Origin: an uncultured Phascolarctobacterium sp.
Lineage (GTDB): Bacteria; Bacillota; Negativicutes; Acidaminococcales; Acidaminococcaceae
Direction: 5' to 3'
Assembly (NCBI GenBank): GCA_949299135.1
Contig: CASFZG010000012.1
Location: 1 to 64,000 of the forward strand
Length of the DNA: 64,000 nt
Within the stretch, counting starts at the first letter, position 1. Each line of letters starts with the position of its first letter. Made by a program: the position numbers and the translations under genes. Positions 2,805 through 22,500 of the stretch are shown piece by piece. Under the pieces are notes generated by a model that ran no database searches, had not been told where the DNA came from, and saw only the letters and a list, made by a program, of their open reading frames with translations.

Positions 2805-4418
2805 TTATTTAAAATAACCAACACGCTGACCCAACGCCAGCACCCTGCGCCCGATGAACGGGATGTCCTCAAGGTCGTCCTTGTTCAAACCGCCGACGCC
2901 CGCCAGCGCAACTGCGTACACCGGCATTGCAACAGCCATTGCCGCAAGGATGGACCATGCGCCCCAACCCGCACCGATAAGCAGCACGCCGTACACCGCC
3001 GCACCCATTGCCGCCGACGCCAGCGCCGGTTTAATAATGCCGCCGATGCTTAACGAATAGTGCGCGTGCTTGTAAATAAACAGCATATTCAGCACCGCCG
3101 CGATACCAAAATCGGCCAGCGTCGCTATGGAAGCGCCGTTAATGCCAAGTTCCGGCTGCGCCGTCAGCACCCAGCTTAAACAAACCTTAACCGCCGCCGC
3201 AAAAATCATGGCGATAACAGGCAGCGCTGTTTTGCCAAGCCCCTGCAAAATGCCGGTGCTTATCTGGTGCAGACCCAAAAGGAAAATGCCAAAACTCATG
3301 GTGCGGATTGCGCCCGCCGCGCCCGGCGCGTTGTAAATCAGCGCCGCCACATCGCCCGCCAGCAAATACAAACCGACGGAACACGGCAGGGTGATAATCA
3401 TCGCCACACGGAAGGCCGTACTGATTTTTGCCTTAATGCCCGCCGCATCTTTGAGCGTGCGCGATTCGGAAATCGCAGGCACAAGGTTTATCGTCATTGC
3501 CGCCGTAAAAATGGTGGCAAGGTTTACCAAAGGCACCGCCATGCCGGTCAGGTAGCCGAACAGCTCCGTCGATTCGCCGACGGAAAAGCCCGCCGCTTCC
3601 AACCGCTGCGGCACAATAAGTAAATCCAGATTGGCAACTACCGGCAGCATCAGGCTTGACATTGATACCGGCAGCGCCAGTTTTAACAATCTTGTAATAA
3701 TCTTGCGGGCACTTTCCGGCTCTTTCGTCATCGCCGCGCCCTGCATTTTATCTTTTAAGCTGCGTTTAAGGCGCGCGTAAAACCACATCAGCACCAGCAG
3801 CGCGCAGAACGCGCCCACGCCTGCACCCATGCTTGCGCCGCCCGCTGCGTATTCCAGCCCGTACGGCATAAACATGTAGGCAAAAACAATCATCGTCACA
3901 ACGCGCATCAGCTGCTCCACCACTTCGGAAGCCGCTGTCGGCGTCATAATCTGCCAGCCCTGCAAATATCCGCGGAAGCTGGCAAGGAAGGTTACAAAAA
4001 ATACCGCCGGCGCCAGCGCGATGATGGAATAATAAGCGCGCGCGTCGCGAATCCAGTGGTTCTCAATCAGCCAGCCTGCGCCGAACCACAGCGCCGAGCT
4101 GAACACCAGGCCGCTTAAAAACAGCAGCCGCAGCGATACGTTGAACACCCTTTTCGCGCCGAAGAAATCGTTCTCCGCCACTTTTTCCGCCGTAATGATG
4201 GAAATAGCCACCGGTATGCCCGCCGACGAAACCGTTATCGCCATCAGGTAAATCGGAAAGCCCATCTGGTACAGCCCGATGCCCTCGCCGCCGAGGATGC
4301 GCGAAAGGATAATCCAGTTCAGCGAGCCGATGATTTTTACCACCATGCTGGAAGCCGTGAGGATTAACGTGCCCTTCAAAAATTTTTTGTTGCCTGTACT
4401 GCCATTATTTTCTGACAT
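2805..4418 (-). CDS. MurJ/SpoVB-type polysaccharide or lipid-linked precursor flippase
   Basis: 537 residues of MOP-superfamily membrane protein with about 14 predicted helices. The N-terminal KGTLILTASSMVVKIIGSL segment and SRILGGEGIGLYQM are typical of the SpoVB/MurJ branch of Firmicutes. It probably flips lipid-linked cell-envelope precursors across the inner membrane. It is first in a two-gene unit with the M23 protein, which fits an envelope role. A promoter with TTGTCA and GATAAT 17 bp apart lies about 40 bases upstream. Whether it is the main lipid II flippase or a paralogue cannot be told from the window. Confidence 0.85.
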   Translation of the reverse strand: MSENNGSTGNKKFLKGTLILTASSMVVKIIGSLNWIILSRILGGEGIGLYQMGFPIYLMAITVSSAGIPVAISIITAEKVAENDFFGAKRVFNVSLRLLFLSGLVFSSALWFGAGWLIENHWIRDARAYYSIIALAPAVFFVTFLASFRGYLQGWQIMTPTAASEVVEQLMRVVTMIVFAYMFMPYGLEYAAGGASMGAGVGAFCALLVLMWFYARLKRSLKDKMQGAAMTKEPESARKIITRLLKLALPVSMSSLMLPVVANLDLLIVPQRLEAAGFSVGESTELFGYLTGMAVPLVNLATIFTAAMTINLVPAISESRTLKDAAGIKAKISTAFRVAMIITLPCSVGLYLLAGDVAALIYNAPGAAGAIRTMSFGIFLLGLHQISTGILQGLGKTALPVIAMIFAAAVKVCLSWVLTAQPELGINGASIATLADFGIAAVLNMLFIYKHAHYSLSIGGIIKPALASAAMGAAVYGVLLIGAGWGAWSILAAMAVAMPVYAVALAGVGGLNKDDLEDIPFIGRRVLALGQRVGYFK

Positions 4419-8228: not shown

Positions 8229-8245
8229 AATAACAGTATTTGTGC

Positions 8246-8251
8246 TATAAT
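8246..8251 (+). promoter_or_regulatory. Extended -10 promoter of the PhzF-like gene
   Basis: TATAAT is preceded by TGC (extended -10). The -35 region is weak (TTTAAA at 8224). It lies 32 bases before the ATG. Confidence 0.5.
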
Positions 8252-8282
8252 GATATTATAAAATTTTTTGGAGGGGATATTT

Positions 8283-9059
8283 ATGAAACAATACGTTGTA
8301 GATGCTTTTACCGATAAGGTTTTCAGCGGCAACCCTGCCGCCGTATGTCTGCCGGATGAATGGCCGGAAGACAACCTTTTACAAAGTATAGCTATTGAAA
8401 ATAATTTATCCGAAACCGCTTTTGCCGTTAAAGAAGCAGACGGACGCTACCGCCTGCGTTGGTTTACCCCCGGCGGAGAGATTGACCTGTGCGGACACGC
8501 CACGCTGGCAACAGCTTATGTCATTACCACTTTTGTGGAGCCTGCCTGCACTCGTGTGGAATTTAACACCTTAAGCGGCGTGCTGACAGTTACAAAAGAA
8601 GGGAATTTATTTGCAATGGACTTCCCCGCTTACAAACTGCAAAAGGTAGAAGTTACGGACACTATGGCGGAAGTGCTTGGCGCACGCCCCACAGAAGCCT
8701 ACGTTGCCCGTGATTTAGTTTGCGTGTTTGATGATGAAGAAACCGTACGCAAAATGCAGCCTGATTTTGCCAAAATGATTGAGCTTGACGGCTTACTTGT
8801 AAACGTTACTGCACCCGGCAAAGAATTTGACTGTGTTTCCCGCTCCTTTGCACCCAAACTGAATGTTGCCGAAGACCCTGTGTGCGGCAGCGGACATTGC
8901 CATATTTTGCCATACTGGCAGGCAAAGCTTAGCAAAAATGAACTGGTTGCTTATCAGGCATCACGCCGCGGCGGAATTATTTACGCACAGCTTGCTGACG
9001 GACGCTGCTGCTTAAAAGGTAAAGCCGCCCTGTTTGCAAAAGCAGAAATTTACATTTAA
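8283..9059 (+). CDS. PhzF-family isomerase/epimerase
   Basis: 258 residues of the diaminopimelate-epimerase-like fold. The catalytic glutamate of the family lies in NNLSETAFAV near residue 45. The CGHATLATA and EDPVCGSGHCH loops, which cradle the substrate carboxylate, are both present. Physiological substrates of most bacterial PhzF proteins are unknown. An upstream TTG at 8268 is in frame, but GGAGGGG sits 7 bases before the ATG at 8283 and the family begins MKQYVVDAF, so 8283 is used. It is monocistronic: its own promoter precedes it and a terminator follows. Confidence 0.85.
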   Translation: MKQYVVDAFTDKVFSGNPAAVCLPDEWPEDNLLQSIAIENNLSETAFAVKEADGRYRLRWFTPGGEIDLCGHATLATAYVITTFVEPACTRVEFNTLSGVLTVTKEGNLFAMDFPAYKLQKVEVTDTMAEVLGARPTEAYVARDLVCVFDDEETVRKMQPDFAKMIELDGLLVNVTAPGKEFDCVSRSFAPKLNVAEDPVCGSGHCHILPYWQAKLSKNELVAYQASRRGGIIYAQLADGRCCLKGKAALFAKAEIYI

Positions 9060-9071
9060 CTACCAAAATAC

Positions 9072-9115
9072 AAAAACTGCTGTCTGAACTTTAACCTTCA
9101 GACAGCAGTTTTTTA
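9072..9115. terminator. Bidirectional terminator between the PhzF-like gene and panD; copy 1 of a dispersed hairpin
   Basis: A 16-bp arm AAAACTGCTGTCTGAA and its complement flank an 8-base loop, with A and T runs on both sides, so it can serve both convergent genes. The same 43-bp sequence with one change recurs at 12353-12395. Confidence 0.85.
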
Positions 9116-9118
9116 ATT

Positions 9119-9502
9119 TCATCCTATTTCTCTTTCCATCTCTGTGCCGCGCACCTTCATGGGTTTGTTGTTTTCGTCAACCATTACAACTTTTGGCACA
9201 AGGCTCAATGCCTCCTGCTCCGTCATCTGCGCGTAAGCCATAATAATAACCTTGTCGCCCGGCTGCACAAGGCGTGCCGCCGCACCGTTAAGGCAAATTA
9301 CGCCGCTGCCCGGCGCACCCGCAATGGTGTAAGTTTCAAGGCGCGAGCCGCTGTTGTTATCAACAATCTGCACGCGCTCACCCGGCAAAATGCCTGCCAG
9401 CTGCATTAAATCGCTGTCGATGGTAACGCTGCCCATGTATTCAAGGTTGGCTTCCGTAACGGTGGCGCGGTGGATTTTGCCGTGCATCATTGTGTAAAGC
9501 AT
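9119..9502 (-). CDS. panD: Aspartate 1-decarboxylase
   Basis: 127 residues, the usual length. It makes beta-alanine from L-aspartate for pantothenate synthesis. The self-cleavage site that generates the pyruvoyl cofactor is visible as GSVT at about residues 24-27, within [12 protein letters not shown]. It is the last gene of the operon, and its start codon directly abuts the panC stop. The Negativicutes-type enzyme should be a cytoplasmic tetramer. Confidence 0.95.
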
Positions 9503-10360
9503 TTATTTTACCTCCAAAATTACGTTGTCAATCAGGCGGGTGCTGCCAAATTTTGCGGCAACCGCCAAAAGATACTGCCCGGTTGTTAAAACTTCCGGCA
9601 CCGGTTTCAGCCCCGGCAGGGCATACATTTCCACATAATCAATATCAGCCATGGGCTCGTCGCCGATGAGTTTTTTAACGCCTTCCACCAGCTTTTTGCT
9701 GTCGCGCTCGCCTGCGCCGAATAAAGTTTGTGCGGTTTCAAGGCTGCTGCTTAAAACAACTGCCGCCGCACGCTCCGCCTTGCTTAAATAAGTGTTGCGC
9801 GATGATTTTGCCAGCCCGTCTGCCTCGCGCACAATCGGCATAATGCGCAGCTGCACGTTAAAGAACAAATCCTTAACCATGCGCTTGATAACCTCTGCCT
9901 GCTGTGCGTCCTTCTGCCCAAAGTAAGCGTGGTCCGGCTGCGCCAGGTTAAACAGCTTGCTTACCACGGTTGTTACGCCGCGGAAGTGTATGGGACGGGT
10001 GCGCCCGCACAAGACTTTGGTAATATCACCGGTAACTTCCACCCACGTCATCTCCTCACTGGGGTACATTTCCACCGGGCTCGGTGCAAAAACAATGTCC
10101 GCACCCATGCTTTCCGCCAGCTTGCAGTCCGCTTCCAGCGTGCGAGGGTAAGCATCTAAATCTTCGTTGGGGCCAAACTGCGTAGGGTTTACAAACACGC
10201 TCACCACCACCAGTTCGTTTTCCATTGCCGCCGCTTTAATAAGCGAAGCGTGGCCTTCATGCAGCGCGCCCATAGTCGGCACAAGGCCGATGGTTTTGCC
10301 GGCAGCTTTAGCCAGCGTAATTTCTTCGCGGAGTTCCGCCACAGTTTTGCAAAGCTTCAT
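9503..10360 (-). CDS. panC: Pantothenate synthetase
   Basis: 285 residues. It joins pantoate and beta-alanine with ATP. The nucleotidyltransferase motifs PTMGALHEGH near residue 28 and the later KSSRNTYL loop are intact. It sits between panB (15-base gap) and panD (no gap) on the minus strand, in the third position of the operon. Confidence 0.96.
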   Translation of the reverse strand: MKLCKTVAELREEITLAKAAGKTIGLVPTMGALHEGHASLIKAAAMENELVVVSVFVNPTQFGPNEDLDAYPRTLEADCKLAESMGADIVFAPSPVEMYPSEEMTWVEVTGDITKVLCGRTRPIHFRGVTTVVSKLFNLAQPDHAYFGQKDAQQAEVIKRMVKDLFFNVQLRIMPIVREADGLAKSSRNTYLSKAERAAAVVLSSSLETAQTLFGAGERDSKKLVEGVKKLIGDEPMADIDYVEMYALPGLKPVPEVLTTGQYLLAVAAKFGSTRLIDNVILEVK

Positions 10361-10375
10361 TTTCGTTCTCCTTTA

Positions 10376-11209
10376 TCAGTACAGTTTATCCAACACGTCG
10401 TCGTCAATTTTAAAAGTATGCTCCGCCGCCGGGAAGCTGCGCGCCTTAACGTCGGTGATATAGTTCTTAACGGCGTTTACAATCTCACCGTATACATCGG
10501 CATAGCGTTTAACAAATTTGGGGCAGAAGCCATCCGTAAAGCCCAGCAAATCATTGCACACCAGCACCTGCCCGTCACAGTATTTGCCCGCGCCGATGCC
10601 GATAGTTGCCGCCGTTTGCAAACTTTCCGTAACCTTTTTTGCCAGAAGCTCCGGCACACATTCCAGCACAATGCTGAACGCTCCTGCCTGTTCCAGACTG
10701 CGGGCGTCGTCCAAAAGCTTCTGCGCTGCTTCCGCACTTTTGCCCTGCACTTTAAAACCGCCCAACTGGTTTACCGATTGCGGCGTAAGCCCAATATGCC
10801 CTACGACGGGTATGCCTGCCTGCGTCAGCTTATGCACCAGCTCGCACACCTCGCTGCCGCCCTCCAGTTTCACTGCCGCACAGCCTGTTTCCTTCAAAAA
10901 GCGGGCGGCGTTGTACATGCCGTCAACCACGCTCGCCTGATAGCTCATAAAAGGCATATCGCCTACCACCAGCGCGCCCTGCGCACCGCGCATAACAGCT
11001 TTGGTGTGGTGAATCATCTCGTCCATCGTTACCGGCACTGTGCTGTTGTAGCCCAGCACCACATTGCCCAGCGAATCGCCCACCAAAATCATTTCAATAC
11101 CGGCCTCGCACACGTTTTTTGCCATGGCGTAATCATACGCCGTCACCATCGTAATCGGCTCGCCGTTCTGCTTCATCTGTTTTATTGTAGCCGTTGTAAT
11201 CTGTTTCAT
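10376..11209 (-). CDS. panB: 3-methyl-2-oxobutanoate hydroxymethyltransferase
   Basis: 277 residues. It transfers a one-carbon unit from 5,10-methylene-THF to 2-ketoisovalerate, giving ketopantoate. The metal-binding LVGDSLGNVVLGY segment and the VGHIGLTPQ loop are intact. Its ATG overlaps the stop of the upstream oxidoreductase gene (ATGA), but it also has its own CGGAGG site 6 bases upstream. It can therefore probably still be translated although the upstream gene is frameshifted. Confidence 0.96.
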   Translation of the reverse strand: MKQITTATIKQMKQNGEPITMVTAYDYAMAKNVCEAGIEMILVGDSLGNVVLGYNSTVPVTMDEMIHHTKAVMRGAQGALVVGDMPFMSYQASVVDGMYNAARFLKETGCAAVKLEGGSEVCELVHKLTQAGIPVVGHIGLTPQSVNQLGGFKVQGKSAEAAQKLLDDARSLEQAGAFSIVLECVPELLAKKVTESLQTAATIGIGAGKYCDGQVLVCNDLLGFTDGFCPKFVKRYADVYGEIVNAVKNYITDVKARSFPAAEHTFKIDDDVLDKLY

Positions 11210-12092
11210 TTAGTTGCCTCCGTTAATAAACTTTCCATTTCCGCTGCCGCGGATGGCGTTATGCTGCCGTTTTCCGCCGCCAGCTTTACAGTTTCTCTGC
11301 CAAGGGCGCAATAGGCGGATAAAAATTCCTGCGGCAATGCTGCAAGATGCGCCTTTACCGTTACCGCATCTCCACGTACGATAGGGCCTGTAAGCGCCTG
11401 CACCGCCGTGTCTGCTTTTTGCAAATTGTTTGCCGTGCCGTTAAAGAGCGGCAGCAGCAATTTAAACGCTTCTTCTTCGCTTTGCGCCCAGCGGCTGAAC
11501 AGCTTTTGCGCCAGCGCCACCACCGTTACGGCGTAGTTGCTGCAAAAGCACGCTGCCGCGTGGTACGCCGCCCTTTCTTCAGCAGGCACGTTAAACGGAA
11601 CTGCACCTGCAAGCCGCGCCAAATCGTTTGCCAAAGCCTGCGCCTTAGGCGTGCCGTCCACCGCCATGCCGATGTTTGCCAAATTATCGCGCGGCGCGGC
11701 AAAGCTCTGCAAAGGGTGTAAGCTGCCCACTTCCATACCCAAAGCAGCCAACGGTGCCAGCACACTAACCTGTGCGCTGCCGCTGACGTGATAAACAAAT
11801 TTGCCACGCACATCAATTCCGCTGCGCACAGCTTCTGCCGCCAGATCTTCGGCAACGTCGCCAATCGCCCTGTCAGGCACGCAGATAAAAATTACATCCG
11901 CCCTTTGCGCCATTTCGCCCGGCGTAACAAGCGGCACGCCAAGCAATTTTGCTTTTCGCCAAGCAATTTTGCTTTTTTATCCGCGTAAGCGCCGCCGTAA
12001 ATGCCTGCGCAGCGTAAACCTACCGCGCCAAACGCCTTAACAAACGATGCTCCAACTTTGCCCGCGCCTGTTACGCCAAAAGTTAAATCCAT
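11206..12092 (-). pseudogene. DUF2520 Rossmann-fold oxidoreductase, frameshifted by a 20-bp tandem duplication
   Basis: The N-terminal part (start 12092 with AAAGGAG upstream; GVTGAGKVG dinucleotide-binding loop) leaves frame at about 11957. Because of the duplication it ends as a roughly 66-residue peptide at 11892. The remainder (MAQRADVIFICVPDRAIGD onward, with a DUF2520 helical domain) continues in another frame to 11206. Removing one repeat copy rejoins AYADKKAK to LLGVPLVTPGEM exactly, so the lesion is recent or reversible. The family often sits with pan genes and resembles ketopantoate reductases. No panE is in the window, so it may be the cell's pantoate-forming enzyme; this last point is inference. 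An assembly or sequencing artefact cannot be excluded. Confidence 0.85.
11937..11976. repeat. Perfect 20-bp tandem duplication inside the DUF2520 gene
   Basis: The unit CGCCAAGCAATTTTGCTTTT occurs at 11937-11956 and 11957-11976 with no mismatch. The unit contains its own inverted repeat (AAGCAA/TTGCTT), which would favour slippage. Twenty is not a multiple of three, so one extra copy shifts the frame. Confidence 0.97.
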
Positions 12093-12126
12093 AACAACTC
12101 CTTTCTGCAAGGATTACCGGAAGCAT

Positions 12127-12156
12127 AAAAAAAGCGCACTCCACCCGGAGTACGCT
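12127..12156 (-). terminator. Leader terminator upstream of the pan operon
   Basis: On the minus strand, AGCGTACTCC and GGAGTGCGCT form a 10-bp stem with one A-C mismatch and a GGGT-type loop, followed by seven T residues. Confidence 0.8.
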
Positions 12157-12290
12157 AAAAATACGCATAAATGCCCAATTTCAGTCACGTCCCGGCAATT
12201 AAGTCCAAGCGGTTTATCGACCTGTTTTTTTGCTTTTGCCGCAGCATCTCTGGTACAGCCCGAACGGTGCTGCCCTGCCACTGCAAACGC
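12127..12290 (-). ncRNA. Structured 5' leader of the pan operon ending in an intrinsic terminator (candidate regulatory RNA)
   Basis: About 165 nt of transcript lie between a consensus-like promoter (12297-12325) and a terminator hairpin. The hairpin ends 35 bases before the DUF2520 start codon. Local hairpins are visible on the minus strand, for example CTGC/GCAG close to the 5' end and CAGC-CCG/CGG-GCTG around 12260. The layout (promoter, structured leader, terminator, ribosome site) is that of a transcription-attenuation element. I do not recognise a named riboswitch class: T-box and cobalamin signatures were looked for and are not convincing. A free-standing small RNA is the alternative. 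Confidence 0.5.
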
Positions 12291-12296
12291 AGGTAC

Positions 12297-12325
12297 ATAA
12301 TAGCACAAAGCTGTGCTGCGTGCAA
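12297..12325 (-). promoter_or_regulatory. Promoter of the pan leader/operon
   Basis: TTGCAC (12320-12325), a 17-bp spacer and TATTAT (12297-12302) on the minus strand, with TGC before the -10 box. Confidence 0.75.
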
Positions 12326-12352
12326 GTAATTTTTTAAAATTTATAAACGCAT

Positions 12353-12395
12353 ACAAAAACTGCTGTCTGAACTTCAACCTTCAGACAGCAGTTTT
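12353..12395. terminator. Terminator of the BioY-thiolase-ligase operon; copy 2 of the dispersed hairpin
   Basis: This is nearly identical to the hairpin at 9072-9115 (one loop change, T to C). On the minus strand it begins right at the ligase stop codon and ends in a T run. Confidence 0.8.
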
Positions 12396-13614
12396 ATTTT
12401 TCAAGCAATGTTTTCAGTTTTTTCCTGTCGGTTTTACCGCTTTCGTTTTTGGGCAAAGCGTCCATAAAAATTATACGTTTGGGCAGTTCGTGCTCCGTCA
12501 ATTTGCCGCGCAGCATTTGCAAAAGCAGCGTTTTGGTTAAGCCCTTGCTCACAATAAAAACTGCCAGCATATCGCCGCTGTTGCTGTGTAGCGGCATTAC
12601 CGCCGCGTCCTCCACGCCTTCGCAGTCCAGCAGCGCGTCCGTCACCTTCAAGCCGGAAATTTTCAGCCCGTTGATGTTGTACATATCGTCGCGCCGCCCC
12701 AAAAAGTGCAGCATGCCGTCCGCGTCAATGCTGCCGCAGTCCCCAAGCGTACAGGAGCGCGGTTTGCCGATAACGTGGTACGGCGTATCAATGTAAATTT
12801 CGCCGTTCTTAACGCTTACGCCTACGCCGTTAAACGGCCTGCCAATAAGCGTGCGGTCGTCCGTCATTTCTGCACCGGTAATGTAAGTAATGTAGTTCAG
12901 TTCGCTTGCGCCGTAGTACAGCGTCATCTCCGCATTGGGCATAATGCGTGTTACCGCCGCCATATCCCTGCGGTCAAAACCCTGCGACCCGGCGATAATA
13001 TTTTTAACGCATGCCATAGGCTCTTTGCTGCTGCGCGCAAGCAGGCGCAGTTTGGCGGGTATCAGGTACACCACGTCGCAGTTATACCGCGCAATCATCT
13101 CCTGCCACAAACGCGGGCGGAATTTATCCGCCGCAGCGATTGCCGCCCCGGCATAAAGCGCGCCCATGTACAAATTAAGGTTGCCGGTAAACGCCAGGCT
13201 GCCCTGCGCAAACATACAGCTTGCTTCCGTTATGCCAAACACGTGGTTCTGCTCGTCAAAAAAGCCCGCCCAGCTTGCAAAAGTGCGGAACAGCACCTTC
13301 GGCCTGCCGGTTGTGCCGCTCGTCATTACGCCCATGCAGGCTTCCGCCGGGGCGGATATATTTACAAGGTGCGCGGTATCAGCTTCCTGCGGCGTAAGCA
13401 CCGGCACTAAAGGCGTGCCGCTCAACGCGATAAATTCAATCAGCTGCTCTGCTATCGTTTGTTTTTTGATGAAGCAAACGCCGCTTTGCCCCTGCGTTTC
13501 GCGCCGCCGCTTCTGCACCAGCTCCGTCAGCGCGCCGTAGGTATAAACACGTTCTTCTGTTATTAAAGCCGCCTTTTGGGGCGGCTTTGCTGCTATTATA
13601 TCTAAATAATCCAT
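12394..13614 (-). CDS. AMP-forming acyl-CoA ligase (YhfT-like), biotin-regulated operon
   Basis: 406 residues, short for the ANL superfamily (usually about 500). The phosphate-binding loop MTSGTTGRPK, the YGASELNYIT adenylate motif, and the C-terminal domain with a K-containing NESGKTDRKKLK tail (A10 motif) are all present, so the protein should be active. It should activate a carboxylic acid as CoA thioester through an acyl-AMP. A TTG at 13629 is in frame, but GAGAG lies better before the ATG at 13614, which is used. It is the last gene of the operon, 1 base after the thiolase stop. In B. subtilis a comparable ligase (yhfT) sits with a BioY gene and a thiolase. The substrate is unknown. Confidence 0.8.
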   Translation of the reverse strand: MDYLDIIAAKPPQKAALITEERVYTYGALTELVQKRRRETQGQSGVCFIKKQTIAEQLIEFIALSGTPLVPVLTPQEADTAHLVNISAPAEACMGVMTSGTTGRPKVLFRTFASWAGFFDEQNHVFGITEASCMFAQGSLAFTGNLNLYMGALYAGAAIAAADKFRPRLWQEMIARYNCDVVYLIPAKLRLLARSSKEPMACVKNIIAGSQGFDRRDMAAVTRIMPNAEMTLYYGASELNYITYITGAEMTDDRTLIGRPFNGVGVSVKNGEIYIDTPYHVIGKPRSCTLGDCGSIDADGMLHFLGRRDDMYNINGLKISGLKVTDALLDCEGVEDAAVMPLHSNSGDMLAVFIVSKGLTKTLLLQMLRGKLTEHELPKRIIFMDALPKNESGKTDRKKLKTLLEK

Positions 13615-13615
13615 A

Positions 13616-14746
13616 TTAACATCTCTCAATTAACAGTGCCGTGCCAACGCCGCCCGCCGCCGCAACCGAAGCCACGCCGTACCTGCCGCCGCGCTTTGCC
13701 AGCGATTTTAACAGGTGCAGCAGAATAATCGCGCCGGAAGCGCCGTAAGGGTGCCCGTATGCCAGCGCGCCGCCAAAAATATTGTAGCCGTCCTCGTGCC
13801 CGTGGAACGCACGGCTGAACAGCACGTCGATAACGGCAAACGCTTCGTTCAGTTCAAAGCAGTCTATCTCGTTATGCGTAAGCCCTGCTTTTTGCAGCAG
13901 CGCCTGCACCGCCAGCACCGCGCTTTTGGGGCTAACCAGCTGGTCTCCGCCCACGGCCGCGCTGCAACGCACTTTGGCCTGCACTGCAAGGTTGTGCGCT
14001 TTGGCGTAGCTTTCACTCGCCAGCAGCACAAACGCCGCGCCGTCATTCGTCAGGCAGGCATTGGCAGCATTGGTAAAGCTGCCGCCCTCCAAAACGCAGG
14101 GCAGCCTGTCCAGCAAACGCTGGCTCATTTTAGGGCGGATGCCTTCATCACGCACCGCGCCGAAGCAAGGCACGATAATGTCGTTTAATACGCCGTCCGC
14201 CGCTGCCTGCGCCGCCAGCTTATGGCTGCGCAAAACCCACGGGTCGCTTTCCGCACGGCTGATCTGCTCGCGCTCCGCCGTCAGCTCCGCGCCTTCCAGC
14301 ATCACCGTTTCGCGGTGGATATTGGGCATAAACTTGGCGACGCTGTACGTTTCTTCGCCCTTGTAATCCGGATGGTTGGCGTTGTATCCGCGCCGCGGCT
14401 GGGTACTGGTGCTTTCAAAACCACCGGCGATAATCACGTCCGCCTCGCCCGCTTCTATTTTTGCCGCCGCCATCGCCACGGCTTCCAGCGCGCTGCCGCA
14501 CTGCACATCGACGCTTACGGCAGGTATCGCTTCATCAAGACCGGCTTCCAAAGCCGCCAGCCTTGCAATGTTGCCGCCTGCGCCCACGCCGTTGCCCGCA
14601 ATTATCTGCTGCGGCACAGCGTTATATTTTTTTACAACTTCCTTCAGCACCGCCGCACCCAAAAGTTCTGCCGGTACATGCTTATACACGCCGCCCGTCA
14701 GCCCCACATAAGTGCGCAGCCCGCCGATTAAACAAACTTTATCCAT
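13616..14746 (-). CDS. Thiolase-family acyltransferase (YhfS-like), second catalytic Cys absent
   Basis: 376 residues of thiolase fold. The nucleophile region VQCGSALEA near residue 85 and the histidine loop AYGHPYGASGA near residue 325 are present. At the C-terminus, where thiolases normally carry the acid/base cysteine (C-[IV]-GGG-x-G), the sequence reads VASVAAAGGVGTALL: the cysteine is alanine. It may condense or cleave by a modified mechanism, or may not be a true thiolase. The start at 14746 overlaps the bioY stop by one base (TGATG); an upstream in-frame start lies inside bioY and is unlikely. Partner of the ligase and the MaoC-like protein. Confidence 0.8.
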   Translation of the reverse strand: MDKVCLIGGLRTYVGLTGGVYKHVPAELLGAAVLKEVVKKYNAVPQQIIAGNGVGAGGNIARLAALEAGLDEAIPAVSVDVQCGSALEAVAMAAAKIEAGEADVIIAGGFESTSTQPRRGYNANHPDYKGEETYSVAKFMPNIHRETVMLEGAELTAEREQISRAESDPWVLRSHKLAAQAAADGVLNDIIVPCFGAVRDEGIRPKMSQRLLDRLPCVLEGGSFTNAANACLTNDGAAFVLLASESYAKAHNLAVQAKVRCSAAVGGDQLVSPKSAVLAVQALLQKAGLTHNEIDCFELNEAFAVIDVLFSRAFHGHEDGYNIFGGALAYGHPYGASGAIILLHLLKSLAKRGGRYGVASVAAAGGVGTALLIERC

Positions 14747-15294
14747 CAGCGCCCGCCGCCAATCGCCCTTTGCACCGGCGCGGTGATGTACGCCGCCGCC
14801 ACGCATTTAACAATGTCCATCGGGATGAACGGCAAAGCGCCGGTAATAATTGCTTTTTCCCAGCCGATGCCGGTCAGCAGGTTAAGCTGCGCCACGCCGA
14901 ACAGATAAATTACCGGTATGCCTACAACCACGCCCAGAAAGGCGCAGCGTTTAAAGCCGTAATTATTGCCGCGCAGCCAGCTGATGATAAACGCCGCCGC
15001 CATAAAACCAAAAATGTAACCGCCGGTCGGGCCAAACAGCTTGCCCGGTCCGCTGGCGCCGCCGGTAAACACCGGTATTCCCGCCAGCCCCATCAAAAGG
15101 TACGCGCTCATGGCAATTACTACCTGGCGCGGTGTCAGCAAAAAGCCCAGCAGGTTAACAAACACCGTCTGCAAGGATATCGGCGACAGCGAAAACGGCA
15201 GCGGAATAATGACATACGCCGACACGCAGTTCATCGCCATGAGCAGCGCCATCTTCACCATATCACGCGTGCCGCCTGTTTTTGCCTGTGCCAT
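14746..15294 (-). CDS. bioY: Biotin transporter S-component
   Basis: 182 residues and about six membrane helices. The BioY hallmark segment GGASGPGKLFGPTGGY is visible in the middle. BioY captures biotin and works alone or with an ECF module; no ECF ATPase or T-component is in the window. It is second in an operon with a BirA operator at the promoter, which independently supports the call. It is followed by the thiolase with a one-base overlap and preceded by the MaoC-like gene with a one-base gap. Confidence 0.93.
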   Translation of the reverse strand: MAQAKTGGTRDMVKMALLMAMNCVSAYVIIPLPFSLSPISLQTVFVNLLGFLLTPRQVVIAMSAYLLMGLAGIPVFTGGASGPGKLFGPTGGYIFGFMAAAFIISWLRGNNYGFKRCAFLGVVVGIPVIYLFGVAQLNLLTGIGWEKAIITGALPFIPMDIVKCVAAAYITAPVQRAIGGGR

Positions 15295-15295
15295 G

Positions 15296-15829
15296 TTACC
15301 GCCCCTTTACCGCAATGCTGAACAGCTCGCGCCCGCCGCAGTAGCCGTCCAGCGCGCCGCCGTTTTTATATACGTCAATCGTTTCGCCCGCAAACGCCGG
15401 CATTTTAAACTTCACATCCCAGTTCAGCGGCATCGGCTTATCAAGCTCGCGCCACAAACGCTCAACCATGCACAAGCCCGGCACAACCGGGTTATCACCG
15501 CGGTGGATGGAATTGGTGTCGTTCACCGCGTCAAGGTAAGCGTTAATCTCATCCTTGTCAATCACAAAGCTCAACAGCTTTTCTCCCTGCGGCACAACCT
15601 CAGGCATCTCGCCTGCGCGCACCAGCGGACGCAAAAGCGTAACCGTCAGCGAAGCAGCGCCTTCGCGGTAAGCTTCCATCACGCCCATGCGGGGCGGAGC
15701 CATTTTTACCGGACGCGTTAAATATTTACCGTTGGATAAATCTGTTGCGCGGATTGCAGCCTTGGCCATTACCGCGCCGTCGTAAGTCGGGCCGTTGTAT
15801 TCTGATAAAGCCCTGATAAGTTTTAACAT
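15296..15829 (-). CDS. MaoC-like hot-dog hydratase/dehydratase, first gene of the BirA-regulated operon
   Basis: 177 residues. The C-terminal half shows a hydratase-2 type motif, NDTNSIH near residue 120, with the Asp/His pair expected for enoyl-CoA hydration; PGLCMVERLW follows. The N-terminal half may be a degenerate second hot-dog lobe. Family members hydrate or dehydrate CoA or ACP thioesters. It is not part of the B. subtilis yhfSTU set, so it is an addition to the known biotin-linked cluster. Its ATG lies 25 bases after a perfect consensus -10 box. Substrate unknown. Confidence 0.7.
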   Translation of the reverse strand: MLKLIRALSEYNGPTYDGAVMAKAAIRATDLSNGKYLTRPVKMAPPRMGVMEAYREGAASLTVTLLRPLVRAGEMPEVVPQGEKLLSFVIDKDEINAYLDAVNDTNSIHRGDNPVVPGLCMVERLWRELDKPMPLNWDVKFKMPAFAGETIDVYKNGGALDGYCGGRELFSIAVKGR

Positions 15830-15853
15830 AGTTCACCACACCTTTACGTTTTA

Positions 15854-15907
15854 ATTATAAGTTTTGCCGTTTTTATTGTCAACCTTTTGTCGCGTTATGG
15901 TTAACAT
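15854..15907 (-). promoter_or_regulatory. Consensus promoter overlapped by a BirA (biotin repressor) operator
   Basis: On the minus strand, TTGACA (15877-15882) and TATAAT (15854-15859) are 17 bp apart, both perfect. The BirA-type palindrome TTGTCAACC (15876-15884), 14 bp, GGTTAACAT (15899-15907) covers the -35 box. This matches the Firmicutes BirA site (TTGTnAACC, 14-16 bp, GGTTnACAA) with one outer mismatch. Biotin-loaded BirA should block RNA polymerase here. The divergent MATE gene lies on the other side. Confidence 0.88.
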
Positions 15908-15964
15908 TATTTTTTCAGACTTTTGCGAATTTACCGCCGCAGGTATTTTTTTACATTTCTCTGC

Positions 15965-15992
15965 TTGTAAATGCCGTGCAAACTGCTATAAT
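15965..15992 (+). promoter_or_regulatory. Promoter of the MATE gene
   Basis: TTGTAA (15965-15970), 16 bp, TATAAT (15987-15992) with TGC before it. Confidence 0.6.
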
Positions 15993-16025
15993 AAAAGATA
16001 TTTTTCCGCACCAAAGGAGCATATC

Positions 16026-17378
16026 ATGCCTAAAATAAAACACGCCGAAGGCACGCAGAAGCTTTCGGTTTTTAAAATGACCTGGCCGATTTTCATTGAG
16101 ATACTTTTGCAGATGATGGTCGGCAACGTGGACCAGTTCATGCTCAGCCACTATTCGCAGCACTCGGTCGCCGCCGTCGGCAACGCCAACCAGATAATCA
16201 ACATCGTCATCCTCGCGCTCAGTGTTATCAGCATGGCGGCAACCATTTTAATCGCCCAGCACCGCGGAGCCGGCAACAAAGAAAAAGTCGCCGAAGTCTG
16301 CACCGTATCGCTGCTGGCAAATATGGTTTTTGGCGTTATCATCAGCGCGGCGCTGTTTATTTTTGACGGCTTCTTTTTGGGGCTTTTGGACGTGCCGCCG
16401 GATATCTGGGACGAAGCATCGCTGTTTTTGCGCTACATAGGCCTCTTTATCGTCGTGCAGTCGGCGTATATCTCGTTCATCTCCTTCTTCCGCGGCTATT
16501 CGCTTTTAAAAATCACCATGATTTGCTCCGTTGTGATGAACCTCATAAACATTGCGGGCAACTGCGTGCTTATCCACGGCCTCGGGCCGATTCCCTCCAT
16601 GGGCGTTCTGGGCGTAACCATCAGCACCAACACCAGTAAAGTGCTGGGGCTGCTGCTCATATTATACTTCTTCCGCAGGTTTATTGATGTTAAACTTTCG
16701 TTTAAATACCTGCGCCCCTTCCCCAAAAACACGCTGTATAAAATTTTGTACCTCGGTTTGCCCTCCGGCGGCGAATCGCTTTCCTACCAGATTTCGCAGA
16801 TGGTTATCATGCGTTTCGTCAACGTCATGGGCATCGTCGTCATCACCACCAAAATTTACGCCTACATCATCGCCATGTTCTCGTACATCTATTCGCAGGC
16901 GCTGGCCATGGCAACGCAAATTATCGTCGGCTTTTTAATCGGCGCAGGCGACCTTGACGCTGTTGAAAAGCGCGTATGGAAAACCATCCGCCTGTCGGTT
17001 TTAATCAGCACCACGCTTACGCTGATTTTATTTTTTAACAGCGACCGTATTTACGGCATTTTTACCGATAACCCCGAAGTGCTGGAACTTGGGCGGCACA
17101 TCTTTTTGATTGAAGTATTCCTTGAAGCCGGGCGTGCCGTCAACATGGTAATGGTTATGAGCCTGCAGGCGGCTGGCGATATCAAATGGCCGATAACGAC
17201 GGGGCTTGTCTCCATGTGGAGCGTGGCGACGCTGGGCGCGTGGTTCTTCGGGCTGCACCTCGGCTGGGGGCTGGTCGGCGTATGGCTTGCCATGTGCCTT
17301 GACGAATGCCTGCGCGCGCTTGTCTTTATCTACCGCTGGAAAAGCGAAGGCTGGCGCAAAAACAATTTGCTGGAATGA
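16026..17378 (+). CDS. MATE-family multidrug/organic cation efflux protein
   Basis: 450 residues and about 12 membrane helices of the NorM/DinF superfamily. It opens with FKMTWPIFIEILLQMMVGNVD-like sequence, which is typical of MATE proteins of Firmicutes. An upstream in-frame ATG exists at 15864, but it lies inside the bio promoter region. AAAGGAG sits 7 bases before the ATG at 16026, so that start is used. It is divergent from the biotin operon and monocistronic, with a terminator downstream. Substrate not predictable. Confidence 0.88.
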   Translation: MPKIKHAEGTQKLSVFKMTWPIFIEILLQMMVGNVDQFMLSHYSQHSVAAVGNANQIINIVILALSVISMAATILIAQHRGAGNKEKVAEVCTVSLLANMVFGVIISAALFIFDGFFLGLLDVPPDIWDEASLFLRYIGLFIVVQSAYISFISFFRGYSLLKITMICSVVMNLINIAGNCVLIHGLGPIPSMGVLGVTISTNTSKVLGLLLILYFFRRFIDVKLSFKYLRPFPKNTLYKILYLGLPSGGESLSYQISQMVIMRFVNVMGIVVITTKIYAYIIAMFSYIYSQALAMATQIIVGFLIGAGDLDAVEKRVWKTIRLSVLISTTLTLILFFNSDRIYGIFTDNPEVLELGRHIFLIEVFLEAGRAVNMVMVMSLQAAGDIKWPITTGLVSMWSVATLGAWFFGLHLGWGLVGVWLAMCLDECLRALVFIYRWKSEGWRKNNLLE

Positions 17379-17391
17379 TAAACTTTTCGTA

Positions 17392-17441
17392 CTTGTAAGT
17401 CTAAAACTATATCATTTTTAAAAGTTTTGGACTTACAAGTT
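17392..17441. repeat. Long imperfect inverted repeat after the MATE gene
   Basis: ACTTGTAAGTCTAAAAC (17392-17408) faces GTTTTGGACTTACAAGT (17425-17441), with one G-T type mismatch and a 16-base AT-rich loop. Partial pairing extends outwards. There is no T run directly after it, so it is not a clear terminator; it may be a relic of a small mobile sequence at the edge of the AT-rich island. Confidence 0.6.
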
Positions 17442-17466
17442 CGAAACTTTTGACTCATTAATAACA

Positions 17467-17498
17467 AAAGAGTTTGGCAAAACGCCAAACTCTTTTTT
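17467..17498. terminator. Bidirectional terminator between the MATE gene and 17501-17917
   Basis: AAAGAGTTTGGC pairs with GCCAAACTCTTT around a 5-base loop, with a T run on both strands. Confidence 0.85.
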
Positions 17499-17500
17499 AT

Positions 17501-17917
17501 TCATATATATTCTTTTATCCAATACTCACATAAGGCTAATTTAGTTTCATCACTAAAAATAGTACCACTTAAATCTTCAGAAGCACCTATAAATTGCCAC
17601 CAATCATCAGGCATTATCTTGTCTCTATTATCAAGCAATATCTTACCAATTTCTAATTTTGCTTCAGAAGATTTAAGCAAATCTGCCCAACTATCAAATC
17701 CTGCTAAAATAGCAATAACATGTTGTGCTTGCATTAATGTAAAATTATCTTCATCCAAATCAAAATCACAAACTATTTGGTCTATATCAAAATACTTGGG
17801 AGAATACTCGTAAATAATTATTTCTTTTCCTGCAATCTTCTCTTTTACAGGAACTTTGGTTTTCCAATCCCTAAAAAGATTCTTCGCCTGCAATTTGAAA
17901 TACTCAATCGTTGTCAT
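17501..17917 (-). CDS. Hypothetical cytoplasmic protein in the AT-rich island
   Basis: 138 residues, acidic, with no signal peptide. It begins MTTIEYFKLQAKNLFRDW and contains a segment (FTLMQAQHVIAILAGFDSWADLL) with the look of the 'gene-adjacent' F-x-W-x-x-L pattern seen in glyoxalase-associated small domains. I do not recognise the family and assign no function. AAAGGATG lies 10 bases before the ATG at 17917; an in-frame upstream ATG (17989) has no ribosome site. Codon use is A/T-ending, unlike the neighbours, which suggests transfer. Confidence 0.65.
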   Translation of the reverse strand: MTTIEYFKLQAKNLFRDWKTKVPVKEKIAGKEIIIYEYSPKYFDIDQIVCDFDLDEDNFTLMQAQHVIAILAGFDSWADLLKSSEAKLEIGKILLDNRDKIMPDDWWQFIGASEDLSGTIFSDETKLALCEYWIKEYI

Positions 17918-18100
17918 AATATAATCATCCTTTCTTGCCAGATATATCATCTTAAAATTTTGCGTCCGTAATCTTTTTCGACAATACATCTGAAAAAAGA
18001 TAAATTATATTATTTGTTGGTTGATGAAATCTTTACACGGACGAGCGAGCGCACCAACAGGCACATTTTTAGTATATATTATTATTAGCTGCAAATCAAC

Positions 18101-18139
18101 AAAAAAATAAAAGCAGGCACTTTATTGTACTTGCTTTTA
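18101..18139 (-). terminator. Terminator of the exported gene pair 18147-19365
   Basis: On the minus strand, AAAAGCA and TGCTTTT arms flank a long loop, followed by a T-rich run. Confidence 0.5.
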
Positions 18140-18146
18140 TATAAAT

Positions 18147-18611
18147 TTACCCTTCTTTTTTTAGTTGTTTTTTTATTTCATCAACATAGTCCGGATGAAA
18201 AGCTATATAGTAATATAATTCTCCTACTGAACCGGGTACAACCTTCTTAAAATCTTGATATGGTAAAGTATAACTATCCAATACCTCCCCTTTCTTATTA
18301 TAAGTAATATAACTATCCAAACTCAATGCCTTATTATTATAATCAATGGTTATATTATGAAAAGTATATTGATCTTCATTGTTAAAAAAATAACATACCC
18401 ATAAATTACATAATAATTTATCTTTATATTCTAACTTGTAATCAAAAGAAGTTTTATCAATTAAAATATCTCTGTCATTAAAAGGCGCTACAAATACCCA
18501 CCTATTCATATCCAAATTGGCATAATTCTTTTGCGCTTCTGCATAAGCATTGGGCATTATAGCAAAAACCATTATTAAGATTGCACAGATAAAACCTAAA
18601 GTCTTTTTCAT
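18147..18611 (-). CDS. Exported hypothetical protein
   Basis: 154 residues. The signal peptide is MKKTLGFICAILIM... ending ANAYA-like at about residue 23. The mature part (FVAPFNDRDILIDKTSF, then several beta strands) resembles small periplasmic proteins of Negativicutes that report on surface ligands, but no named domain is evident. GAAGGG lies 7 bases before the ATG at 18611; a longer in-frame start would overlap the upstream gene. It is the second gene of a two-gene unit, 13 bases after the stop of the previous one. AT-rich codon use. Confidence 0.6.
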   Translation of the reverse strand: MKKTLGFICAILIMVFAIMPNAYAEAQKNYANLDMNRWVFVAPFNDRDILIDKTSFDYKLEYKDKLLCNLWVCYFFNNEDQYTFHNITIDYNNKALSLDSYITYNKKGEVLDSYTLPYQDFKKVVPGSVGELYYYIAFHPDYVDEIKKQLKKEG

Positions 18612-18624
18612 ACATATCCCTTCT

Positions 18625-19365
18625 TTATTCTTCAATCTTTGAAGCTTTTTCTATTTTCTCTGTAAAATCATCAAAAGCACTTTTTATAATACGCTCAAAA
18701 ACTTCTTTAGGCTTACTATTACCGAATAATTCATCACCTTCGCGTTCTCTTTTATCAATTCGAGTCCACACGTTCGCCTTTGTAGCCATATCATTAATTA
18801 TAAATTTTACTGTTGTATAAGTCATCGGTACATTTTGAGGTCCTATATATTGCTGCTCCGTTGTATGAGTTGTAACAATTTGACCGCCGTACATACCGTT
18901 GCTAACATAATGTGATTCTGTTTTAGGTACATATATATAATAGCCTTCCTGATATCTGGTTCCAGTCGAATACTCAAGCAATACTGCATTAAAAACCAAA
19001 TCTATATTTTCATTTACATATTTAATAAAAGTGTTTTCTGCTTCCGATGGATTGCTTTTTGCCAATTCTTCGATATTTATTCCATAAAGTAATTCCATGT
19101 CTTTGTTAACGTCATTTAAATTTTTAACTTTATAGCCTAACGGAACAATTTTATTTGTTACTTTATCTTGTAAAACTTCTAAAAAAATTTCTTCCGTTTC
19201 TTTTTCTGTAATACCATTTTTCAATTCATCAGGCACTGTTAAATTAACCAGAATCCGTTTAGCTTTTCCGAAATCATAATCTTTATCAATCCATTCCTGC
19301 TTATCAGCAAAAGCAGAAACAGTTATCATCATTAACGCTATAACTAACAATAAAATCCTTTTCAT
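18625..19365 (-). CDS. Exported hypothetical protein
   Basis: 246 residues with a signal peptide (MKRILLLVIALMMITVSAFA). The mature N-terminus, DFGKAKRILVNLTVPDE, resembles the strand order of DUF4136-like or CsgG-like small envelope proteins, but this is weak. A Tyr/His-rich middle (SHYVSNGMYGGQ, THTTEQQYIG) and a C-terminal helix follow. AAAGGGG is 8 bases before the ATG at 19365; the GTG at 19374 lies inside that site and is unlikely. First gene of a pair with 18147-18611. Function unknown. Confidence 0.65.
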   Translation of the reverse strand: MKRILLLVIALMMITVSAFADKQEWIDKDYDFGKAKRILVNLTVPDELKNGITEKETEEIFLEVLQDKVTNKIVPLGYKVKNLNDVNKDMELLYGINIEELAKSNPSEAENTFIKYVNENIDLVFNAVLLEYSTGTRYQEGYYIYVPKTESHYVSNGMYGGQIVTTHTTEQQYIGPQNVPMTYTTVKFIINDMATKANVWTRIDKREREGDELFGNSKPKEVFERIIKSAFDDFTEKIEKASKIEE

Positions 19366-19394
19366 CTCGCGCACCCCTTTCCCTTTATATTAAA

Positions 19395-19400
19395 ATTATA
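19395..19400 (-). promoter_or_regulatory. Extended -10 promoter of the exported pair
   Basis: TATAAT on the minus strand, preceded by TGG (an extended -10). No good -35 box is visible. Confidence 0.4.
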
Positions 19401-19459
19401 CCATATATTAAACATTTGTTGTATTTAATTCGATTAGCAAATACACACCACCCTTGCAT

Positions 19460-19541
19460 GTTTTTCTGTATACAAGGATACTTCTGTTGAAACCATTGCA
19501 GTTTTTCTGTATACAAGGATACTTCTGTTGAAACCATTGCA
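19460..19541. repeat. Perfect 41-bp tandem duplication upstream of pyruvate carboxylase
   Basis: The unit beginning GTTTTTCTGTATACAAGG and ending CCATTGCA occurs at 19460-19500 and 19501-19541 without mismatch. A short remnant of the repeat's 3' end (CCCTTGCAT) precedes copy 1. Confidence 0.97.
19487..19515 (+). promoter_or_regulatory. Putative pyc promoter spanning the repeat junction
   Basis: TTGAAA (19487-19492, in repeat copy 1), a 17-bp spacer, and TATACA (19510-19515, in copy 2). Neither copy alone contains both boxes at this spacing. Confidence 0.5.
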
Positions 19542-19596
19542 ATTAGTAACTTTTTTTAATAAAATAGGTACAGTGCTATCCGAAGGAGGGTATACT

Positions 19597-22500
19597 ATGC
19601 AAAAAATTAAGTCTGTACTGGTTGCCAACCGCGGCGAAATCGCTATCCGCGTTTTCCGTGCCTGCAACGAACTCGGCATCCGCACAGTGGCAATTTATTC
19701 AAAAGAAGACACACTTTCACTGCACCGCAACAAAGCTGACGAAGCCTACCTTGTCGGCGAAGGCAAGGGTCCTATCGATGCTTACCTTGATATTGAAGAC
19801 ATTATCCGTATCGCGCATGAGCACGATGTAGACGCCATCCATCCCGGCTACGGCTTTTTAAGCGAAAACAGCGACCTTGCCAAACGCTGCGCCGAAGAAG
19901 GCATTATCTTTATCGGCCCGCGCCTTGAACACCTTATTATGTTCGGCGACAAAGTTAATGCGCGCGAACAGGCCAAGCTTGCCGGCATTCCGATGATTCC
20001 GGGCAGTGACGGCCCGATTGACAGCGTTGAAGACGTTTACCGTTTTGTGCAGGCGCACGGCTTCCCCGTTATGCTTAAAGCCGTTAACGGCGGCGGCGGG
20101 CGCGGCATGCGCATGGTAAACAGCAACGAAGATTTGGAAACCGTATACAACATGGCTAAATCCGAAGCTATGAAGGCTTTCGGCAGCGATGAAATTTACC
20201 TTGAAAAATACCTTGAAAGCCCGAAACATATCGAAGTTCAGATTTTGGGCGATACGCAGGGCAACATTGTGCATTTGTTCGAGCGCGACTGCTCCGTACA
20301 GCGCCGCCACCAGAAACTTGTGGAAATTGCCCCGGCCTTTTCGCTTAAGCCCGAACTGCGCAAGGCAATCTGCGATGCAGCCGTTAAGCTGATGAAAAAC
20401 GTTAATTACCTCAGCGCCGGTACGGTTGAATTCCTCGTTACCCCGGACGGCAACTTCTACTTTATTGAAGTTAACCCGCGTATTCAGGTTGAACATACCG
20501 TTACCGAAGAAATTACTGGTTTTGACATTGTGCAGACCCAGATTAAAATTGCCGAAGGCTATTCCCTGCACAGCCCGGAAATCGGCATTCCCGAACAGGA
20601 TAAAATTACCAGCTTCGGCCATGCCATTCAGTGCCGTATTACCACCGAAGACCCTGCCAACAACTTTATGCCCGATACCGGCAAGCTGATTGCTTACCGC
20701 AGCGGCGGCGGCTTTGGCGTGCGTCTGGACGGCGGCAATGCTTTTACGGGTTCCGTTATTACCCCGTATTACGATTCGCTTTTGGTTAAGGCAACCACCC
20801 ACGGCCTTACCCACGAAATTGCCATTACCAAAATGCTGCGCTGCTTAAAAGAATTCCGCATCCGCGGCGTTAAAACCAATATTCTGTTCCTTGAAAACGT
20901 ACTGGCTCACCCCAGTTTCCTTGACGGCAGCTACAATACTTCGTTTGTTGATGAAAACACCGAACTTTTCATCTTCCCGAAAACGCTGGACCGCGGCACC
21001 AGGCTTTTGCACTACATTGCCGATGTAACCGTTAACGGCTACAACAATGTAGGCGTACAGCCCAAACCGGAATTTGCCCCGCTCAGCCTGCCCAAAGCGT
21101 TTAAAGGCACCCCTGCCGACGGCACCAAGCAGATTTTGGATTTGCAGGGGCCGGAAGGGCTTTCCAAATGGGTTATGGACCAAAAAGAAGTGCTGTTTAC
21201 GGATACCACCTTCCGTGACGCGCACCAGTCGCTGCTTGCAACCCGCATGCGCACAAACGATATGCTGAAAGTTATCGGCACTACCTCAGCCAAGCTGCCT
21301 AACCTGTTCAGCTTTGAATGCTGGGGCGGCGCAACTTTTGACGTTGCCTACCGCTTCCTTGACGAAAGCCCGTGGAAACGCCTTGAGCAGTTCCGCGAAA
21401 AATGCCCGAACATTTTGTTCCAGATGCTGCTGCGCGGCGCCAATGCCGTTGGCTACACCAGCTATCCGGACAACGTAGTTAAAGAATTTATCCGCCTCAG
21501 CGCGAAAAACGGCGTTGACGTGTTCCGCGTATTCGACAGCCTTAACGGCATTGAAAACATGCGCCTTTCACTGGACGCTGTACGCGACGCAGGCAAATTT
21601 GCCGAAGCTGCATTATGCTACACCGGCGATATTTTAGACCCGCGCCGTGATAAATACGACCTTAAATATTATGTAACCATGGCGAAAGAACTGGAAAAAA
21701 CCGGTGCCAACTCCATCTGCATTAAGGATATGGCAGGCCTCTTGAAGCCGGAAGCAGCTTACCAGCTTGTTTCTGCCCTTAAAGAAGCAGTTAACGTGCC
21801 TATCCACCTGCATACGCACGAAGGCAGCGGCAACAGCATTTACACTTATGCCCGCGCAATCGACGCCGGCGTAGATATTGTTGACGTAGCCATGAGCGCT
21901 ATGAGCGGCGGCACTTCCCAGCCGAGCGGCGCAAGCCTGTACTATGCACTTTCCGGCCATCCGCGCCAGCCGCACCTTGACATTAACGCACTTAACGAAA
22001 TGTCCCGTTACTGGGAAAGCGTGCGTCCGTATTATAAAGCAATCGACAACACCGTTTCTTACCCCAACCCGGAAGTTTACATCCACGAAATGCCGGGCGG
22101 CCAGTACAGCAACCTGCAGCAGCAGGCCAAAGCAGTAGGCCTCGGCGAACGCTGGGAAGACATTAAAGATATGTACCACCGCGTTTCCATGATGTTCGGC
22201 GATATTATTAAAGTAACGCCGTCTTCCAAAATGGTTGGCGATATGGCACTGTTTATGGTACAGAACGACCTTACCGAAGAAGACATTTACGCCAAAGGCG
22301 ATTCGCTCAGTTTCCCGGCTTCAGTTGTAGAATTCTTTGAAGGCCGCCTGGGCGTACCGTATCAGGGCTTCCCGCAGAAATTGCAGCAAATTATCCTTAA
22401 AGGGCGCAAACCTATCGAAGGCCGCCCCGGTGCTGCACTGCCCCCGGCAGATTTTGAAAAAGTACGCGCCAGCCTTGCGGAAATGGGCGCGCCGACCAGC

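Follow-up and report, generated by a model that had tools for sequence, protein, structure and literature searches.

A four-gene operon in the DNA of an uncultured gut bacterium, Phascolarctobacterium sp. (contig CASFZG010000012.1, positions 1–64,000; the whole 64,000-nucleotide stretch is called the window here) joins BioY, the biotin-specific transporter component, to a putative hydratase, a thiolase-like protein and an acyl-coenzyme A (CoA) ligase, behind an operator of the BirA type. On balance we regard it as a biotin-scarcity operon that would import or scavenge a carboxylic acid and remodel its CoA thioester, with BioY coupled to three enzymes of a single pathway. The preliminary description of this DNA had placed the operon at 12394–15907; these coordinates are correct, and the promoter, the operator and the four packed genes were all found again on the minus strand. 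In order of transcription, the features are:

15876–15907, minus strand: BirA-type operator, TTGTCAACC-N14-GGTTAACAT, with two half-sites separated by 14 bp, of which the downstream one includes the −35 box.
15854–15882, minus strand: sigma-70-type promoter, TTGACA at 15882–15877 and TATAAT at 15859–15854 separated by a 17-nt spacer (12 of 12 consensus positions).
15296–15829, minus strand: open reading frame 1 (ORF1), 177 residues, a compact hot-dog protein resembling hydratase 2 (MaoC/HtdX-like), with the motif D104-x-N106-x-x-H109.
14746–15294, minus strand: BioY, biotin-specific S component, 182 residues (PF02632, E 3.6e-40).
13616–14746, minus strand: YhfS-like thiolase, 376 residues; equivalents of Cys89, Asn316 and His348 are present and that of Cys378 is Ala362.
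12394–13614, minus strand: YhfT-like AMP-forming acyl-CoA ligase, 406 residues; the start is ATG at 13614, with TTG at 13629 a possible alternative.
12356–12395, minus strand: terminator-like hairpin of 16 pairs at the ligase stop codon, near-symmetrical and assigned to the plus strand by the scan.

The genes are separated by next to nothing: ORF1 and BioY by a 1-nt gap, thiolase and ligase by another, while BioY and the thiolase overlap by 1 nt. Judged by sequence, BioY, thiolase and ligase form a single transcription unit. Pfam matches among the four proteins were to BioY, Thiolase_N/C and AMP-binding/AMP-binding_C, and an Rfam scan of window positions 8000–20000 returned no element.

A relaxed form of the operator pattern matched once in the window, once in the whole 1.87-Mb genome and not at all in 100 dinucleotide shuffles. 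The same BirA-type box, two copies in tandem, precedes bioB-bioW-bioF in this genome (L040:3056–3087 and 3100–3131), and a BirA carrying an N-terminal helix-turn-helix is encoded. The operator at the promoter, the shared box and this form of BirA agree with the control by BirA that had been proposed at the outset. BirA sites are also present upstream of orthologous operons, where an operator score of at least 13/16 was reached at 38 of 72 loci, compared with 39 of 1620 random windows. Counted by genus, the operator occurs in 19 of 37 genera (15 of 37 with one locus per genus), compared with 7 of 1680 shuffles. GTTGAC, a possible −35 box, lies within the downstream half-site at many loci. In Staphylococcus aureus, BirA regulates yhfS-yhfT and bioY (PMC6391492). 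The four-gene operon is probably switched on when biotin is short: BirA would repress the transcription unit at plentiful biotin and allow expression at scarcity, a response that we infer.

The first gene, described initially as a MaoC-like hydratase, retains that assignment, since family profile, fold and catalytic motif agree. A profile of 15 ORF1 relatives matches the (R)-specific enoyl-CoA hydratase PhaJ (1iq6, E 1.8e-8) and HTD2 (3ir3, 6e-7), and eight of the 15 match Pfam MaoC (PF01575) individually, at E values up to 1 (best 2.6e-5). The AlphaFold2 model, with a predicted local distance difference test score of 88.9, has a hot-dog fold; its best structural match is the double hot-dog dehydratase HtdX (3wew; Z 16.6, 2.6 Å, 165 residues), and hydratase 2 of MFE-2 is also close. 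The catalytic D-x-N-x-x-H motif is present, and its Asp and His, as in PhaJ, HTD2 and HtdX, are invariant in all thiolase-linked members. From profile and model, ORF1 looks like an enoyl-CoA hydratase of the (R)-specific type and has the appearance of a shortened double hot-dog: it is compact, at 177 residues against approximately 233–260 for HtdX. It differs further from the known hydratase 2/MaoC proteins in its short post-motif loop and an identity of approximately 15%, and from PhaJ in that the ORF1 family has Pro or Gln where PhaJ has the His of IVHG. The nearest named records are 98–99% identical and belong to the Phascolarctobacterium genus or family; its longer relatives from two other families reach 228 and 240 residues. 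In genera g2 and g12 (L067–L071, L075, L136–L139), the hydratase frame continues for 150–380 nt into BioY, which is read in a different frame; an overlap of this length is unusual and may encode a C-terminal extension.

The thiolase and the ligase had been likened to YhfS and YhfT of Bacillus subtilis, and the likeness stands at the level of homology. The best specific NCBIfam models are PRK06690 for the thiolase (242 bits against a cut-off of 498) and PRK07638 for the ligase (147.5 against 518); neither reaches the equivalog cut-off. We take these models to represent, respectively, the families of YhfS and YhfT in B. subtilis. The module thiolases were compared as a set of 60, comprising the window sequence and 59 further loci, a few of which come from identical or almost identical genomes. 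The equivalents of the nucleophilic Cys89 and the oxyanion Asn316 are kept in 60/60 and that of His348 in 59/60, the remaining one having a gap. At the position of Cys378, no member has Cys (Ala in 58, Pro in two), and further members, those of ORF1-less operons included, likewise lack this second catalytic Cys. An invariant Tyr lies on either side of the GHP motif. The overall fold is ordinary (Z approximately 50 against Clostridium thiolases) and closest to the biosynthetic thiolases, with which the module enzyme shares the three retained catalytic residues; the missing Cys378 equivalent and the flanking tyrosines set it apart. In the Zoogloea thiolase, Cys378 is the base that deprotonates acetyl-CoA (PMC3406046). 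Because this general base is absent, plain acetyl-CoA condensation or thiolysis is doubtful, and the residue pattern suggests that the enzyme is probably not an ordinary acetyl-CoA C-acetyltransferase. The remaining Cys-His-Asn set would possibly suit decarboxylative, KAS-like elongation from an acyl-CoA primer, or some other modified reaction. The original comparison of the operon with steps of beta-oxidation or its reverse keeps its hydratase, while its ordinary thiolase step is weakened by the lack of the general-base Cys in every member read.

A link between hydratase and thiolase emerges from their joint decay. Wherever ORF1 and the thiolase share a locus, the D-N-H residues of ORF1 are intact (60/60). 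The six genomes of genus g63 all keep ORF1-BioY, yet a genome-wide search (E 1e-90) found this thiolase in none of them, and in all six the catalytic His of ORF1 is replaced by Tyr and the next Gly by Glu. Because g63 lost the thiolase and the hydratase catalytic His together, the two enzymes probably share a pathway; the loss, confined to one genus, was probably one evolutionary event, which makes it suggestive and not statistical. The His is retained in fifteen other ORF1 proteins whose loci contain no thiolase, and several of the genomes concerned hold the thiolase elsewhere or have loci that end at a contig edge.

Of 300 Negativicutes genomes, 109 carry relatives of ORF1 (E below approximately 1e-9). 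The exact order ORF1-BioY-YhfS-YhfT is found in 39 of 62 neighborhoods, whereas the others show rearrangement, are incomplete or are truncated at a contig end; at some rearranged loci BioY still adjoins. BioY was searched for in 80 ORF1-positive genomes and is encoded in every one; in 67 of them it lies at most 4 kb from ORF1. In Lachnospiraceae, BioY is divergent from ORF1-YhfS-YhfT, and two genomes from further families carry the full operon. In the small genome G026 (L062, L052), the thiolase, the ligase and bioB all appear frameshifted, as if biotin genes were decaying jointly.

In the mechanism that we propose, the ligase would activate a carboxylic acid to its CoA thioester, the thiolase-fold enzyme would form or break the C–C bond adjoining the thioester, and ORF1, judging by its motif and family, would interconvert the 2-enoyl and (R)-3-hydroxy forms. 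We infer both the direction of these reactions and their substrate. Several observations weigh against a biotin-scarcity pathway of this kind. Operons of BioY-YhfS-YhfT without ORF1 exist (G056, G067, G100, G122), and in such cases the hydratase is evidently dispensable. The thiolase-ligase pair lies away from ORF1-BioY in G201 and G240, which weakens strict coupling to BioY. The hydratase His is retained in G191, which has no thiolase of this type at E 1e-90. A recognizable operator was not found at several of the 72 scored loci (e.g., G035, G133), and chain extension would need a ketoreductase and an enoyl reductase from elsewhere. Finally, ORF1 as a single sequence gave no Pfam or NCBIfam match and nothing useful in a PDB search, lying below Pfam detection when taken alone; for this reason its hydratase nature is shown by profile and fold.

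The substrate may be a biotin-related acid imported by BioY, for side-chain repair or salvage, a plausible identity although short of a probable one. It is favored because BioY adjoins the enzymes. In a specific form of this proposal, which we hold to be doubtful, BioY would import a shortened catabolite such as bisnorbiotin, the ligase would make its CoA thioester, and the base-less thiolase, the hydratase and housekeeping reductases would add two carbons, restoring the valeryl chain. That the substrate is instead drawn from scavenged fatty or other acids, in a biotin-sparing metabolism, is possible on a tentative footing. This more general acyl role is favored because yhfS-yhfT forms a separate operon in S. 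aureus (PMC6391492). Sequence alone cannot separate the two.

Biotin-sparing acyl metabolism can also be framed as an explanation of the whole operon, and as such we consider it tentatively possible. At low biotin, acetyl-CoA carboxylase would fail and the malonyl-CoA level would drop. The ligase would then activate fatty or branched acids obtained by scavenging, which the thiolase-like protein and the hydratase would feed or remodel for lipids, saving malonyl-CoA, with BioY only co-regulated. The S. aureus yhfS-yhfT pair, a BirA target separate from bioY, is described as serving fatty acid elongation (PMC6391492), which fits; so does a module equally common with and without de novo biotin synthesis, and so do the loci at which the enzymes have no adjoining BioY. 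Less easily accommodated are the proximity of BioY (within 4 kb of ORF1 in 67/80 genomes, and adjoining even after rearrangement) and the absent second thiolase Cys, which would be unexpected for malonyl-CoA-free elongation.

In a further reading, the thiolase-like protein would work as an aldolase or a different kind of lyase, with the hydratase making its 3-hydroxyacyl-CoA substrate as in the Shy and Sal pair, and the operon would trim a side chain. Such a reading would account for the pairing of a hydratase with a thiolase-fold enzyme whose catalytic residues have changed (in Sal, thiolase residues are repurposed; PMC12329534), for the joint decay of the two and for the tyrosines around GHP. 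It is nevertheless unlikely. Sal has Gly at the position of the nucleophilic Cys (PMC12329534), which is kept here in 60/60; the module enzyme retains the NEAF thiolase motif and not YDCY, no DUF35 partner gene lies within the operon, and the module thiolase is overall closest to biosynthetic thiolases.

Supply of pimelate, or pimeloyl-CoA, for de novo biotin synthesis had been suggested initially as one role of the operon, for example by extension of a glutaryl-type primer as with BioZ. Enzymes making pimelate for biotin should track bioF, and ORF1 relatives do not: across the 300 genomes, 52 of those that carry them have bioF and 57 lack it (Fisher p 0.34, counts uncorrected for relatedness). 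The bioF-less carriers, which would have no biotin use for pimelate, make up 57 of the 109 ORF1-positive genomes and include near-complete ones (G001, G102, G128) from several families. The lack of association with bioF contrasts with the near-perfect linkage of bioF to bioW (129 of 132 bioF genomes). Several Negativicutes genera encode BioW and BioF fused in one frame of approximately 630–700 residues (G035:C16, G036:C18, G058:C6, G163:C1, and others). Nor does the operon fill in for missing bioC or bioW in the way that the preliminary description would have it checked, as bioW is present in this genome, where no BioC was found above the cut-off. What speaks for a pimelate role is the BirA control common to the operon and bioB-bioW-bioF here, the free pimelate that BioW in this genome must obtain from some source, and the precedent of BioZ, which extends a primer to pimeloyl (PMC7645780). 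We consider such a role improbable, and, given the absence of association with bioF and bioW, reject pimelate supply as a general function; the product is probably not the usual building block of biotin synthesis. A bystander role, in which the enzymes share their regulation with BioY on grounds outside biotin chemistry, would suit their patchy distribution and frequent losses but is improbable, since operator and gene order persist in numerous genera across one class as well as in Lachnospiraceae and two additional families.

By inspection, panD, panC and panB follow the biotin operon on the same strand, at 9119–11209, making two neighboring vitamin operons. At 11937–11976, a 20-bp tandem duplication (CGCCAAGCAATTTTGCTTTT twice) frameshifts a gene for an NAD-binding, ketopantoate-reductase-like protein. 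Two close relatives (L143, L145) show a single alignment gap at this duplication, as if without the extra 20 bp.

The control of BioY, YhfS and YhfT by BirA is already known, and the operon resembles the BirA-regulated yhfS-yhfT and bioY/yhfU systems of B. subtilis and S. aureus in its BirA-type operator, its BioY, its YhfS-like thiolase and its YhfT-like ligase. The arrangement of bioY/yhfU, yhfS and yhfT in B. subtilis is here presumed. In contrast to these systems, the window operon adds a hydratase 2-like protein as first gene, and its thiolase and ligase, although homologous, score well under the PRK06690 and PRK07638 equivalog cut-offs. A second point of comparison is the Shy–Sal system of steroid side-chain metabolism (PMC12329534), in which, likewise, a MaoC hydratase partners a thiolase-fold enzyme whose catalytic residues are altered; Sal, however, has no nucleophilic Cys and binds a DUF35 domain, and neither applies here. 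Literature joining MaoC, BioY and biotin was not found, nor were a hydratase conserved as third enzyme, the absence of the thiolase Cys across the group, the independence from de novo synthesis or the co-decay, in a search that covered few subscription papers; a search for bisnorbiotin with bacteria and beta-oxidation also found nothing.

To our knowledge, there is no explanation for the presence of a thiolase and a ligase in the Gram-positive BirA regulon. The predicted hydratase adds a third, previously unrecognized enzyme to this BirA-linked set, carried across a class and beyond. With the thiolase apparently non-canonical in its catalysis and pimelate supply removed as a general answer, a short list of substrates is left, which bears on how gut and rumen bacteria may respond to a shortage of biotin.

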